From Zobellia alginiliquefaciens (lineage in GTDB: Bacteria; Bacteroidota; Bacteroidia; Flavobacteriales; Flavobacteriaceae): DNA of 64,000 nt. Shown piece by piece: positions 57,308 to 64,000 of the stretch. Under the pieces are notes generated by a model. It was not told the origin of the DNA. It saw only the letters and a program-made list of their open reading frames with translations, and searched no databases. The stretch spans positions 4,960,001-5,024,000 of the forward strand of contig NZ_CP119758.1 in NCBI RefSeq assembly GCF_029323795.1, given 5' to 3'. Position numbers and translations under genes: made by a program. The stretch's first letter is position 1. The number at the start of each line of letters is the position of its first letter.

Positions 57308-58360
57308 ATGACAATTTTAAAGTTTTTCCCAATCTGTCTTTTTTTAATGCTTTTTATGGCTTGTGGAGGCGATAACGCCCCATCTTCACTGTTCGAAATT
57401 CAGTTAGAAGGAAACAGCAAAAGCTTTCAGCAAAACCAGAATATTTCAGTATCCTTGAAAAACAAGAAAGATAAAACAATTGAAAGTGTAACCTATTCCA
57501 TAGACGGAAAGGAACTACCGGTTACTAATGGAAAAATTGCCCTTAATATGCCGCATTTAGGTGATAAAACACTTAAAGCTACCGTTGCATATGAAGATGC
57601 CTCGGTAGAAGTTACTAAACACCTAAAGCTACTAGCTCCAAATCCTCCCGAAATTTACACTTATGAAATAATTAACGAGTATCCGCACGATAACAAAGCT
57701 TACACCCAAGGTCTAGAATTTTATAAGGACACTCTTTATGAAAGTACTGGAAAAAAAGGAAGGTCTTCATTGCGGAAAGTCGACTTTAAAACTGGTGAAG
57801 TATTACAGCAAGTAGACTTGGACCAAACCTACTTTGGAGAAGGCATCACCATTTTGAACAACAAAATTTACATGCTTACCTGGCGCAGTGGCGTTGGCTT
57901 TATATACGATTTACAAACTTTGGACAAAATTGATAATTTTCAATTTGGAGAAAGTAAAGAGGGTTGGGGACTTACCAATGACGGAGAAAAATTATTTAAA
58001 AGTGACGGTACTGAAAAAATATGGTTTTTAAATCCTGAAACTTTAGTTGAAGAAGGCCATATTGAGACGGTTACTAACAAGTCTATTAATGATAGCGCCA
58101 ACGAACTTGAATATGTTAATGGAAAAATCTACGCTAATGTATATCAAAAACCAAGCGTTATGATTATTGATGCCAATAGCGGAGCCATTGAAGGTGTTAT
58201 TAATTTTGGAGGCTTAAGTAATAAAGTAACCCATCACGCTACTTGGAGCGATACAGATAATGTTCTAAACGGTATTGCCTACCACCCAGAAAGACAAACA
58301 TTTTTTGTAACCGGAAAAGAATGGGATAAAATGTTTGAGGTGAAAATCCAAAAGAAATAA
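57308..58360 (+). CDS. Glutaminyl-peptide cyclotransferase lipoprotein (propeller type)
   Basis: This 350-residue protein has lipobox FMAC (Cys19). After an N-terminal Ig-like part (about 25-110) comes a five-bladed propeller of the plant-type glutamine cyclotransferase family: EYPHDNKAYTQGLEFYKDTL, STGKKGRSSLRKVDF, YFGEGITILNNKIYMLTWRS, LFKSDGTEKIWFLNP and NELEYVNGKIYANVY, ending with NGIAYHPERQTFFVTGKEWD. It should form N-terminal pyroglutamate on secreted proteins. The next gene starts at the base right after its stop. A TATTTTTG element is at 57251-57258. Confidence 0.92.
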   Translation: MTILKFFPICLFLMLFMACGGDNAPSSLFEIQLEGNSKSFQQNQNISVSLKNKKDKTIESVTYSIDGKELPVTNGKIALNMPHLGDKTLKATVAYEDASVEVTKHLKLLAPNPPEIYTYEIINEYPHDNKAYTQGLEFYKDTLYESTGKKGRSSLRKVDFKTGEVLQQVDLDQTYFGEGITILNNKIYMLTWRSGVGFIYDLQTLDKIDNFQFGESKEGWGLTNDGEKLFKSDGTEKIWFLNPETLVEEGHIETVTNKSINDSANELEYVNGKIYANVYQKPSVMIIDANSGAIEGVINFGGLSNKVTHHATWSDTDNVLNGIAYHPERQTFFVTGKEWDKMFEVKIQKK

Positions 58361-60643: not shown

Positions 60644-61375
60644 TTGGAATATACTTATACCATAATAGATTCAGATGCGACCTCAAATTTGCAATTACAG
60701 CACTATTTGGAGGATTATGGTGATTTTACATGTGCCGGTCTTGCGCAAAACAGTACCGATGGCACTAATACAATTCTAAAATACAGTCCGGACGTTATTT
60801 TCATTAGTCTAAATGAAAGCGCTTACGAATATTTTCATATGGTTATGGAGCTCCATCAATATTTAGACGAGCTTCCTATTATTATAGGTATATCTAAAAG
60901 CAAGAAATACGCTTACGATGCAATAAAAAATGGATTCTTTGATTACTGGCTAAAACCCTATAATGAGTTTGATATAAGAAAATCCATTTTACGTCTTAAA
61001 AAGCAGGTACCCGCCAAAACAGAACCCCAAACATTGTGTTTAAAATCGTACCGTGACTTTCAATACATCAACACAGACGACATTCTTTACCTACAGGCAG
61101 ATAACAATTCTACAGAATTCGTTATGAAAGACGGAACAATAAACAATGCCTACAAAACGTTAAAAACCTTCGAAAATCAGTTGCCAAAAAACTTTGTGAG
61201 AATACACCAGAGTTACATAGTAAACACGAACTTTATTTCTCGTATTAGTTATGGCAAATCATACTGCACCTTAAAACAGAATAAGATGCAACTACCATTC
61301 TCCAAATCGTACAGGGAAAATATAGACGGGCTCAAAAATTTATTGTCAAAAAACACAATTTCCTCTCTTAATTAA
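60644..61375 (+). CDS. LytTR response regulator with degenerate receiver, TTG start
   Basis: This 243-residue protein has a receiver-like domain (about 1-118) and a LytTR DNA-binding domain (about 130-238; LKSYRDFQYINTDDILYLQAD, FVRIHQSYIVN). The phospho-acceptor Asp of the usual PDLVFLD is Ser55 here (PDVIFISL), while the acidic pair (IIDSD, Asp9/Asp11) and the Lys (WLKPY, Lys104) are kept. An in-frame TAA at 60635-60637 leaves TTG 60644 as the only start that preserves the domain; the next ATG is codon 66. It is followed by the repeat lipoprotein and the TPR kinase on the same strand. Confidence 0.88.
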   Translation: MEYTYTIIDSDATSNLQLQHYLEDYGDFTCAGLAQNSTDGTNTILKYSPDVIFISLNESAYEYFHMVMELHQYLDELPIIIGISKSKKYAYDAIKNGFFDYWLKPYNEFDIRKSILRLKKQVPAKTEPQTLCLKSYRDFQYINTDDILYLQADNNSTEFVMKDGTINNAYKTLKTFENQLPKNFVRIHQSYIVNTNFISRISYGKSYCTLKQNKMQLPFSKSYRENIDGLKNLLSKNTISSLN

Positions 61376-61465
61376 TCCAATACTCTCAAAACCCAGCAGT
61401 TTACTCATAAAACTGGTTCGTTCACCATTACAATTTTAAAGCTGATTAAATTTATCGTAAACCAC

Positions 61466-61511
61466 ACTAGTTTAGCGGTGTAAGAAACAATCAATAACCC
61501 CCTAAACTAGT
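61466..61511 (+). promoter_or_regulatory. 5' hairpin just before the repeat lipoprotein start
   Basis: ACTAGTTTAG at 61466-61475 and CTAAACTAGT at 61502-61511 are exact complements, with GG/CC extension; the 3' arm ends 6 bases before the ATG at 61518. TAAATTTA at 61447-61454 could be a -7 element, which would put the hairpin at the very 5' end of the mRNA. An RNA-stability or initiation-control role is inferred. Confidence 0.45.
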
Positions 61512-61517
61512 TTAATT

Positions 61518-61916
61518 ATGAAAAAAGTAGCGACCATTTTAGCATTGATGATTATGTCATTTGGAATTGTCTCATGTGAAACAGAAACGGATTCAGCCTA
61601 TGATGTAAACGTAGACTCTCCAACCGACGGCGACGATGTTGAAATTGACGAACGTGGTTCTTCTACAGATGGTGATGACGTTCCAACCGATACCCGAGAC
61701 TCTTCTACCGATGGTGATGACGTGCCAACGGATACCCGAGATTCTTCTACCGATGGTGATGACGTGCCAACGGATACCCGAGACTCTTCTACAGATGGTG
61801 ATGACGTTCCAACGGATACCCGAGACTCTTCTACCGACGGTGATGACGTGCCAACGGATACACGAGACTCTTCTACCGATGGTGATGACGTGCCAACCGA
61901 CACTCGAGATTCTTAA
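61518..61916 (+). CDS. Asp-rich tandem-repeat lipoprotein
   Basis: This 132-residue protein is a lipoprotein (GIVSC, Cys20) with a short linker (21-33), one diverged unit (34-47) and six identical 14-residue units SSTDGDDVPTDTRD (48-131), then Ser and stop. Each unit has five Asp and one Arg, so it is strongly acidic and may bind Ca2+ or other cations; no family was recognised. The nucleotide units vary in seven of 14 codons, always synonymously. The reading frames on both strands through the repeat are shadows. It lies between a LytTR regulator and a TPR kinase and ends at a terminator. Confidence 0.88.
   Translation: MKKVATILALMIMSFGIVSCETETDSAYDVNVDSPTDGDDVEIDERGSSTDGDDVPTDTRDSSTDGDDVPTDTRDSSTDGDDVPTDTRDSSTDGDDVPTDTRDSSTDGDDVPTDTRDSSTDGDDVPTDTRDS
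61617..61910 (+). repeat. Seven-unit 42-bp coding tandem repeat
   Basis: The first unit (61617-61658) is diverged; six units of 42 bp (61659-61910) encode the same 14 residues. Codons 3, 4, 8, 10, 11, 12 and 14 vary only at third positions (for example ACA/ACC, GTT/GTG, ACC/ACA/ACT). Confidence 0.95.
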
Positions 61917-61940
61917 AATAAAATCAAAATAGATTATATT

Positions 61941-61972
61941 AGCCTTAAATTAAGTTTTAAGGCTTTTTTTTT
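61941..61972 (+). terminator. Terminator of the repeat lipoprotein gene
   Basis: AGCCTTAAA (61941-61949) pairs with TTTAAGGCT (about 61956-61964) around a short loop and is followed by a run of about nine T. It ends 17 bp before the kinase ATG, so the kinase needs another promoter or read-through. Confidence 0.88.
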
Positions 61973-61988
61973 AACCAGGATTGTCCAT

Positions 61989-64000
61989 ATGATCTGTGTC
62001 AAACGTAAACTACTTCTAATCACTGTTCATCTAAGCTTTCTCTTGCTTACCACATCCTTTATATCTTGTCACAAGAAAGATCAAAATAATATTCACAAAT
62101 CCATCGTTCAAGTCGATTCAGTTTTTGCTCTGATCGACAGCTCCAGCAATTCAGGTGTCTCAAAAGAGAAAAGTAAGCTGTATTTGGCTAAAGCCGAAAA
62201 AAAAACGGACGAGTTAGATAACGATTCAATAAAACTTAAGCTTTTTTCTAAAATTTCCCTCAAGTACTTAAACCTCAAAGATTCTGTCAACTTCTTAAGA
62301 ACAAATCAAGAAACCGTTGAATTATCCAAATTATCAAATGATAGCATAACTCTTGCCGAAGCAAACTGGGATTTAGCTAGTTTCCATAGGTCAAAAGCAC
62401 GTACTCATGAGGCATATTTATACTTTTCGGAAGCCCAAAAAATATACGAAGCCCTTCATATGGATTATGAATCTGCCCGTATGCTATACAACATGGCTGT
62501 TACCCAAGCAGACATTAAAGACTATACAGGTAGTGAAATTAACACCATACGGGCCATTGAAATTTTAAAACCACTAGAAGAGTACAAAAGGCTTTACTAC
62601 TGTTATAATAATTTAGGCTCAATAACAAAAGAACTAAAAGATTTTGACAGGGCTCTTGATTACTATGCGACTGCTCTTGAATACCAAACCAAACTAGACT
62701 TTGAAAACAACTACGGTCTTAGCCTTAAGAACAATATTGGTGTTGTGTACCAGGAAAGAGGCAATTTTGAGGAATCCATTCCTTATTTTGAAGAAGTACT
62801 AAAAGACAAAAGCTTAAAATCAGAAAAACCTACTTTGTACGGTACTGCCCTAAATAATTTAACCTACAGTAAATTCAAAATAAACAACAGGGAAAACTTC
62901 TCGGACCAGTTTTCAGAAATAATTAAGCTTCAGGATAGCTTAGGGGAGATTAAAGATGTCTCACGCACCCATTTCTGCTTTGCCGAATATCACTTGAGTA
63001 AAAACGACACTTTAAACGCTATTTTTCAAGCAAAGAAAGCCTTGGGATATGCAAAAATATCAAGTAATAACGATCGCGTTCTAGAAAGCTACCAGCTTTT
63101 AGCCAAGTTAGAACCCTCAAAATCTAGTTATTATAATCAGCAATACATCTCTTTAAATGATAGCCTACATCATACCGAGAGACAGGTTAGGAATAAATTT
63201 GCACGAATTCGTTTTGAAACAGATGAATTTATTGCCGAAAATGAAGCGTTGGCTCGCGAAAAGCAACTGTGGACAGGTGTGGCGGTTTCCATATTATTAT
63301 TAGGACTTATGTCATACGTAATTCTAGATCAGCGATCTAAAAATCAAAAACTCCGTTTTCAACAGCAACAACAGGCAGCTAACCAAGAGATTTTCAATTT
63401 AATGCTTACCCAAAAAGAAAAACTGGAAGAAGGAAAGAAAATAGAGCAAAAAAGAATATCAGAAGAACTTCATGATGGGGTTTTAGGAAAAATGCTAGGT
63501 GCACGTATGGTGCTTACGGGGCTCAATAAACGTTCGGGAGAAGAAGCTACAACCGAGAGAAAAAAAGCTATTGATGCCTTACAAGAAGTTGAAAAAGAGG
63601 TGCGTTCTATTTCCCATGAACTTAGTCACGCAGCTTACCAGAACATTCCAAATTTCATCCATTCAATTAGCGACCTATTGAATACGGTTAAAGCTACCGC
63701 GAATTTTGAATCTAAATTTGTATACAACGAAACCTTTGATTGGGATTCACTTAATGCAAATGTAAAAATTAACGTGTACCGTATGATTCAAGAAAGTTTA
63801 CAAAATTGTGTTAAACATGCTGCATCTAAAAATGTAATTGTAGAACTTAGTAAAACCGATACTGGTTTTATGGTTAAGATTGTAGATGACGGAAAAGGCT
63901 TCAAAACAAGTTCCAGAAAAAAAGGGATTGGTCTTCGAAACATTTCATCTAGAATAGAAAAAATAAAAGGAACGTACACTATTGAGAGTGCTCGCGGTAA
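61989..64000 (+). CDS. TPR sensor histidine kinase (HisKA_3 type), 3' end outside window
   Basis: The frame is open from ATG 61989 to the window edge (670 codons), so only the last residues are missing. The N-terminus is a lipoprotein-like signal (FISC, Cys27). TPR repeats cover about 60-400 (YYCYNNLGSITKELKDFDRALDYY, NNIGVVYQERGNFEESIPYFEE). A transmembrane helix (about 428-447) leads to a HisKA_3 domain with KRISEELHDGVLG (His495) and a HATPase with VKHAASKNV, IVDDGKGF and GIGLRNISSRI. It should phosphorylate a NarL/LuxR or LytTR partner. The upstream LytTR protein lacks the Asp, so the true partner is probably beyond the edge. Confidence 0.92.
   Translation, partial: MICVKRKLLLITVHLSFLLLTTSFISCHKKDQNNIHKSIVQVDSVFALIDSSSNSGVSKEKSKLYLAKAEKKTDELDNDSIKLKLFSKISLKYLNLKDSVNFLRTNQETVELSKLSNDSITLAEANWDLASFHRSKARTHEAYLYFSEAQKIYEALHMDYESARMLYNMAVTQADIKDYTGSEINTIRAIEILKPLEEYKRLYYCYNNLGSITKELKDFDRALDYYATALEYQTKLDFENNYGLSLKNNIGVVYQERGNFEESIPYFEEVLKDKSLKSEKPTLYGTALNNLTYSKFKINNRENFSDQFSEIIKLQDSLGEIKDVSRTHFCFAEYHLSKNDTLNAIFQAKKALGYAKISSNNDRVLESYQLLAKLEPSKSSYYNQQYISLNDSLHHTERQVRNKFARIRFETDEFIAENEALAREKQLWTGVAVSILLLGLMSYVILDQRSKNQKLRFQQQQQAANQEIFNLMLTQKEKLEEGKKIEQKRISEELHDGVLGKMLGARMVLTGLNKRSGEEATTERKKAIDALQEVEKEVRSISHELSHAAYQNIPNFIHSISDLLNTVKATANFESKFVYNETFDWDSLNANVKINVYRMIQESLQNCVKHAASKNVIVELSKTDTGFMVKIVDDGKGFKTSSRKKGIGLRNISSRIEKIKGTYTIESARG

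Follow-up and report, generated by a model that had tools for sequence, protein, structure and literature searches.

In the Rap-Phr systems of the RRNPPA group, found in Bacillota and their phages, tandem Phr propeptides carry one to four identical or similar copies of a pheromone, in one case with a four-residue spacer, as described in the available sections of PMC11343458. The corresponding sections of PMC10075063 report that the gene of the TPR receptor, a protein of 250-500 aa, adjoins the propeptide gene in RRNPPA systems, and those of PMC9765709 that in Rap-Phr a soluble receptor acts on the peptide after its re-uptake by the cell. Within the extent of these sources, tandem Phr propeptides are the nearest published case that we found. 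For quorum sensing through two-component systems, the available part of a review states that Gram-positive bacteria signal with oligopeptides and Gram-negative bacteria with small molecules; among the homologues it lists for some of the kinases and regulators are ones in Bacteroidetes (PMC8895600).

Near its end, the window (the whole stretch of 64,000 nucleotides of Zobellia alginiliquefaciens DNA that was analysed) enters a cassette in which a LytTR regulator, a small precursor, a TPR-domain histidine kinase, and a response regulator with an HTH-like C-terminus are encoded in this order. As far as the sections cited above describe Rap-Phr, the cassette shares with it a small propeptide with an export-type signal, tandem copies, and a TPR receptor-like gene directly adjacent. 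Unlike Rap-Phr as described there, the cassette has its TPR domain in the predicted outer part of a membrane-bound histidine kinase of 690 aa, it occurs in a Gram-negative member of the Bacteroidota, and the arrays have periods of 12-41 residues and up to 10 units. Compared with the TPR superhelix of RRNPPA receptors, the fold here is a predicted one, and Rap matches rank behind the eukaryotic LGN. Since the soluble-receptor feature fails, we do not file the cassette under RRNPPA, despite the logic it shares with tandem Phr.

The cassette also resembles ComX-ComP, AgrC-AgrA, and ComD-ComE, to the extent that the review covers them in its available part (PMC8895600), in that a histidine kinase and a response regulator are encoded with a signal gene, which is a proposed one here. 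Unlike the peptide two-component systems, it has a second regulator gene behind the kinase gene and a LytTR regulator that seems to lack the phospho-acceptor Asp. AgrA and ComE are themselves LytTR regulators, and we know of no TPR sensor and no signal array in peptide two-component systems. Yeast alpha-factor and other fungal precursors are exported proteins with identical tandem copies of a signal and cleavable spacers, and their receptor is a GPCR. The window precursor has a similar layout to these eukaryotic, GPCR-read precursors, with which we claim no homology.

From its sequence and surroundings, we consider it somewhat probable (roughly 0.55) that the window gene encodes a precursor holding multiple copies of a ligand of the adjacent kinase, and this ligand is perhaps a diffusible pheromone. 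In the literature covered, which excludes preprints and most subscription journals, we recognised no description of the precursor gene, the cassette, or a peptide signal of Flavobacteriaceae.

Table 1 Features of the cassette within the window.
Feature	Position	Strand	Basis
LytTR-type regulator with receiver-like N-terminal domain, first cassette gene, TTG start as listed	60644..61375	+	Pfam LytTR, 67.9 bits
Three direct repeats ~21 bp apart (61381, 61402, weaker 61423), proposed LytTR binding site	61381..61433	+	Intergenic conservation
TAGTTTAG, candidate -7 promoter element of Bacteroidota type	61468..61475	+	Conserved intergenic block
Conserved ACCCC(C) block in 5' leader of precursor gene	61495..61500	+	Intergenic conservation, strong, window and relatives
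Precursor of repeated peptide units (proposed), small lipoprotein-type protein, 132 aa	61518..61916	+	ORF, translation, genus relatives
Lipoprotein-type signal up to Cys20	61518..61577	+	Sequence inspection; counterpart in 87/119 distinct precursors
Diverged first unit, SPTDGDDVEIDERG	61617..61658	+	Unit-by-unit comparison; G005 counterpart TDGDHVEIDERG over 12-residue core
Six 42-bp units, all SSTDGDDVPTDTRD, proposed ligand copies	61659..61910	+	Tandem Repeats Finder, codon comparison
Intrinsic terminator (hairpin and T-run) separating precursor and kinase gene	61940..61972	+	Hairpin -10.7 kcal/mol
TPR sensor histidine kinase, 690 aa, proposed receptor	61989..64000, continues to 64061 past the window	+	Pfam TPR_12, HisKA_3, HATPase_c

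An open reading frame check confirmed the precursor gene with its ATG start. The protein begins with a signal up to Cys20, which by rule is presumably the residue that would be lipidated; a short acidic linker then leads to a diverged unit, and six identical units follow. An earlier note on this DNA had described six identical Asp-rich 14-mers in a lipoprotein-type ORF, which translation and Tandem Repeats Finder bear out (61659-61914, period 42, 6.1 copies, 92% matches, 0% indels); the seventh, diverged unit in front of them had been overlooked. Each of the six contains five Asp and one Arg, and their protein sequence is the same throughout. Codon comparison agrees with the note that half of the codons vary synonymously and none nonsynonymously among these units: codons 3, 4, 8, 10, 11, 12, and 14 are variable (7/14), and every difference is a silent one at the third base. 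With each variable column taken as one random change, seven silent columns out of seven would arise by chance with a probability of ~8e-5 when all changes are equally likely and ~5e-4 with transitions only. Counting the diverged unit over its 12-residue core, the array holds 4 replacement and 8 silent codon columns.

The gene is single in its own genome, one contig of 5.07 Mb, where a search at E up to 10 gave 5 matches with a second-best E of 0.07. The note had known of no family with this repeat. Consistently, no Pfam family matched the protein at E up to 1, and NCBIfam gave one match, far below cut-off, over the signal region. A profile scan of seven precursors gave weak matches of four of them to another small lipoprotein, the PG1828 family lipoprotein NF050142 of NCBIfam; the scores of 14.4 to 19.8 bits come largely from the signal region and are far below the cut-off of 50 bits.

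Tandem arrays are present in 28 of the 121 picked precursors, and their units differ between genera; examples are TDGDDTPTDDRQS, TDDDDNPVVEREG, CDDCSHDKDEREAVA, DSPDGDDIPDIET, and a 28-residue unit in Arenibacter. For the 27 arrays with at least two full units, a script found 192 codon columns that vary silently and 34 with replacements, where the silent fraction expected of a random change is ~0.215 (silent/replacement: Zobellia 46/1, Arenibacter 72/21, Maribacter-type 31/10, others 43/2). The script omitted diverged end units, which favours likeness. When all units were counted, over unit cores only, there were 165 silent and 21 replacement columns (Zobellia 41/12, Arenibacter 47/2, Maribacter-type 32/0, others 45/7). 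L165 and L169 were left out because parts of them are masked, and L151, with one full unit, was dropped from the pooled array test. The pooled script p value of 6e-92 is overstated since sister-species arrays share history; the direction is the same in every group.

The seven Arenibacter arrays consist of a 14-residue core, TDGDxxPKERRDPP, and a spacer. Replacement and silent columns number 2 and 47 in the core and 18 and 29 in the spacer (Fisher p 3e-5, a value that is too small because sister arrays are non-independent). Cores and spacers were defined after the sequences had been inspected. This alternation of core and spacer matches the layout of a pro-pheromone. The earlier note had proposed that purifying selection acts on the protein sequence of the unit, and had named as contrary evidence non-coding or out-of-frame repeats in relatives, or replacement variation equal to silent variation. 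The relatives have coding, in-frame repeats in which silent exceeds replacement variation, and purifying selection on the protein sequence of the unit is well supported here and in the arrays of other genera.

All nine Zobellia genomes searched carry the precursor gene, with unit numbers from 1 (G003, G007) to 10 (G002), diverged end units included. The units are identical or near-identical within a species and different between species, as in SSVDGDDVPTDRRG of Z. russellii and STDGDDVQIDRRGS of Z. barbeyronii. By eye, the diverged first, second, and last unit can be matched by their codons between the window array and that of G005, the nearest species compared, and these shared codon-marked units indicate that the array arose before the two species diverged. 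The seven Zobellia arrays with more than one unit, those of the window and G005 among them, hold 48 units, and 40 of these have their closest unit or units exclusively in their own array, a comparison based on the precursor picks before their correction from 121 to 119. Selection seems to keep the units alike in protein, and over longer times the arrays seem to be rebuilt.

An unconstrained disordered tail that grew by slippage, its units identical since the array is young, would account for the turnover between species and for the existence of diverged end units, along with the 12 replacement columns of the Zobellia cores when all units are counted. However, those 12 stand against 41 silent columns, the ratio is 46 to 1 without end units, and the array predates the split from G005; we find such a tail hardly credible. 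The earlier statement that the array is not recent slippage is thus right with respect to the age of the array relative to G005, and too strict in that arrays turn over on longer times. Constraint and slippage, which had been set out as alternatives, are both at work.

We examined how widely the precursor and its placement are shared. The family comprises small proteins with an export signal, with a median length of 54 aa where unexpanded. Searching 299 Flavobacteriaceae genomes with a Zobellia relative gave matches in 30, of which 27 are true relatives: they share the type of signal and are either ~50-60 residues long or carry repeats. G061 and G120 (a His-rich protein, by eye) and G258 (L077, a place without LytTR) were not counted. 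With the LytTR protein as anchor, 78 of the 299 family genomes matched at E 1e-45. A total of 73 loci were read, nine from Zobellia, 24 from the precursor search, and 40 from the LytTR search with its 14 weakest matches omitted.

In 69 of the 70 loci of the family-genome set that have both genes, the stretch from LytTR to the TPR kinase holds a small ORF whose signal is of the export type, and a same-placed small signal ORF is present in 75/75 loci of a second set drawn from the best 80 of 379 relatives (Zobellia, Pricia, Euzebyella, Maribacter, Eudoraea, Arenibacter, Muriicola, and other genera). As controls, shuffled LytTR-kinase regions gave such an ORF in 2.1% (70-locus set) and 1.6% (75-locus set) of cases, and the reverse strand in 6/70 and 5/75 regions; the two sets overlap in species, bases were the units shuffled, and the ORF filter was fixed after examples had been inspected. 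Set aside from this count for want of a kinase match were L079, L104, and L110, and the short loci L141, L176, L177, L178, and L185. Loci at contig ends apart, L104 and L110 are the two that have a LytTR gene and no kinase match, and neither has the small signal ORF. In the single miss, L105, the small ORF is interrupted: signal and cysteine are present and an early stop follows.

Once identical genes had been removed and four wrong picks (L075, L097, L104, L110) among the 121 automatic ones corrected, the set comprised 119 distinct precursors. Their signal is conserved and their C-terminal part very variable across the family, in which tandem arrays arose in several lineages; the body is net negative in 118/119. 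A lipobox-like cysteine is found in 87 of the 119 and absent in 32, and a CxxC pair occurs in 24/32 precursors without a lipobox vs 5/87 with one. The CxxC precursors without a lipobox include L084, L132, L135, L162, L163, and other loci, several of them from Maribacter. The L132 array scores 28.0 bits for the Pfam zinc-ribbon family DUF1451, whose cut-off is 26.1. Disulphide formation or metal binding is possible in the CxxC precursors.

The earlier note had suggested that the repeats bind cations or minerals, or serve as a spacer. Binding of Ca2+ or mineral, or a role as surface spacer, would suit the net negative bodies and the above-cut-off DUF1451 score of the Maribacter CxxC array, and the DGDDVP motif has what we take to be a resemblance to part of the thrombospondin type 3 calcium repeats. 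On the other hand, the window protein is without a Pfam match at E up to 1, a range within which no thrombospondin type 3 or other calcium repeat profile appeared, and the cassette is conserved across the family whereas the unit sequence is not. Single-unit relatives would also serve poorly as spacers, and the fixed placement beside the TPR kinase would be left unexplained. What is conserved is the export signal, the LytTR/TPR-kinase placement, and the likeness of copies, not the unit sequence, so that neither cation or mineral binding nor a spacer role is supported as the function of the family, and we regard this explanation as distinctly improbable.

Multi-core RiPP precursors combine a leader with a variable repeated core, and both are present here, as would be expected of a precursor of a modified or antimicrobial peptide (a multi-core RiPP or bacteriocin) with dedicated regulators. 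However, the Pfam-matched neighbours in the own genome (transaldolase, short-chain dehydrogenase, SHMT, fumarylacetoacetase, bacilliredoxin, Clp-type ATPase, glutamine cyclotransferase, and thioesterase) contain none that was recognised as typical of modification, export, or immunity; the check covers the Pfam matches of the own genome, with which the neighbours in relatives were compared. The Sec-type signal of the precursor also argues against it, such a signal being unusual for a cytoplasmic RiPP leader. We give a RiPP or bacteriocin a low probability. Two or three neighbours of the own cassette are without a family. Among the Pfam-matched neighbours there is also no protease or transporter except the Clp-type ATPase.

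We then considered the control of the precursor gene. LytTR proteins bind paired direct repeats, and the direct repeats that follow the LytTR stop codon are conserved over 100 distinct LytTR-precursor intergenic regions (100/147, duplicates and lengths outside 120-190 having been dropped). An exact match of the two-repeat pattern occurs at this locus only in the own genome. A wider regulon based on this pattern was rejected: at up to 3 mismatches there were 23 matches vs 48 for a backwards control, so that only the exact match at the precursor locus is meaningful. The TAGTTTAG block lies ~45 bases before the ATG in the window; the promoter consensus of Bacteroidota is TAnnTTTG. A terminator of hairpin and T-run follows 109/119 precursors, where 7 are expected from shuffles. 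With conserved repeats upstream and a terminator of its own, the precursor bears the marks of a short separate transcript. The LytTR protein of the window reaches 25.1 bits for Response_reg, below the cut-off of 30.2, and the phospho-acceptor Asp position of its receiver-like domain is occupied by Ser in the window and by Asn in the consensus (by eye), indicating that the protein may lack control by phosphorylation.

The proposed receptor has a hydrophobic stretch near residues 428-446, between its TPR and kinase parts. AlphaFold predicts the sensor part to be a TPR superhelix with a mean pLDDT of 91.5. In a Foldseek search with this model, the top matches were LGN with partner peptides, and ranks 28-45 included Rap proteins, several of them with pheromone (4gyo, 6t46, 8rst); a sequence profile likewise matched RapF among many TPR proteins. 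Since TPR domains are mutually alike, these matches show a suitable fold and not a specific tie. Over residues 101-450 the sensor-side protein is near neutral or slightly acidic, a net positive charge being confined to the first 100 residues, so that charge alone would not attract an acidic ligand. Within Zobellia, variability is higher in most windows of the TPR half than in most of those of the kinase half.

For 62 of the 121 loci, those with complete enough neighbours, we tested the precursor body for correlation with the genes around it. The partial r is 0.29 for the TPR sensor vs -0.07 for the kinase half, and 0.15, with one covariate fewer, for the flanking gene HP514. With all other genes held fixed, the values are 0.30 for TPR, 0.30 for LytTR, 0.14 for the response regulator, 0.10 for HP514, and -0.12 for the kinase, and in 43-residue windows r ranges from ~0 to 0.24 in the TPR sensor, from -0.01 to 0.22 in HP514, and from 0.12 to 0.40 in LytTR. 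The correlation of precursor and sensor is weak, and the equal value for LytTR, a non-exported protein, is outside what the ligand model explains.

Gene order, export-type signals, arrays, the excess of silent change, upstream repeats, terminators, and the predicted fold lead us to infer export, cleavage, binding, phosphotransfer, LytTR control, and a possible intercellular role for the proposed ligand precursor. The LytTR regulator would bind the upstream direct repeats, as the conserved DNA suggests, and a short transcript ending at its own terminator would result. The product is predicted to leave via the Sec route as a lipoprotein, given the signal seen in the protein. Its repeat units, cut free or tethered, may then bind the putative extracytoplasmic TPR domain of the adjacent kinase, and the kinase would signal by phosphotransfer to the regulator that is encoded next, the one with the HTH-like C-terminus. 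A higher unit number would provide more ligand per precursor, and a unit that is read by a receptor would be expected to stay uniform within a species and to shift between species along with that receptor.

The precursors without a lipobox and the spacer-separated cores favour release of free units, and the lipobox in most precursors (87/119) favours a tether or a later cut. Further points against the ligand model are that the Pfam-matched neighbours contain no protease or transporter bar the Clp-type ATPase, and that the lipobox in 87/119 would tether the product. Both would be natural for a tethered accessory or brake of the kinase, a membrane-held lipoprotein that binds the TPR domain upon an envelope change, with repeats that raise the number of local binding sites and with no peptide released. 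The N-terminus of the kinase is likewise lipobox-like in most of 32 sequences compared (by eye), so that both proteins could face one compartment. However, a tether does not suit the 32/119 precursors without a lipobox, which include the seven Arenibacter arrays with spacer-separated cores, and such marked differences from species to species are, in our judgement, more to be expected of a diffusible signal. We think a tethered accessory or brake unlikely.

Taken further, the ligand model would describe a species-specific acidic peptide that is released in many copies and read by a membrane kinase through its extracytoplasmic TPR domain, with signal and receptor co-diversifying into private 'languages'. 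That the cassette is such a peptide pheromone system of Flavobacteriaceae is a possibility that we put forward tentatively. If true, Gram-negative Bacteroidota would have quorum sensing by peptides through a new type of receptor, in which two known parts, a TPR pheromone receptor and a histidine kinase, are united in one protein. A multi-copy peptide signal would be unexpected for this bacterial group. It would provide a peptide language for marine, partly alga-associated Flavobacteriaceae, yield 119 distinct candidate precursors, and open the question to direct tests with synthetic peptides.

Beyond the family, strict LytTR searches matched 9/246 genomes at the level of the order (81 genera, E 1e-40) and 2/295 at the level of the class (156 genera, E 1e-60), all matches lying within Flavobacteriaceae. 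A 218-residue protein just beyond the window, S218 (L015:10915-11571), was considered as a core part of the cassette and rejected, as it comes after the cassette in 41/43 orthologous but 2/21 divergent loci; its best Pfam score is 14.3 bits vs a cut-off of 25, and NCBIfam gave no match at E up to 0.5. Five further places in the own genome match the TPR kinase at E up to 1e-8, and no LytTR-precursor pair was seen in these paralogue regions among ORFs of at least 150 aa and small signal-bearing ones (LytTR by eye). A distant relative of the TPR kinase, L206 (own genome 1391815-1393767, minus strand), has 24% identity over residues 8-686 and one in-frame TAA; it adjoins a response-regulator-like ORF, and no precursor was seen alongside. 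At L078 (G039), a tandem LytTR pair is 58% and 73% identical to the window LytTR, and the precursor there has CDDC repeats. A glutamine cyclotransferase gene (57308-58360, Pfam Glu_cyclase_2, 305 bits) lies near the cassette in 33 of 34 loci, L077 being the exception.
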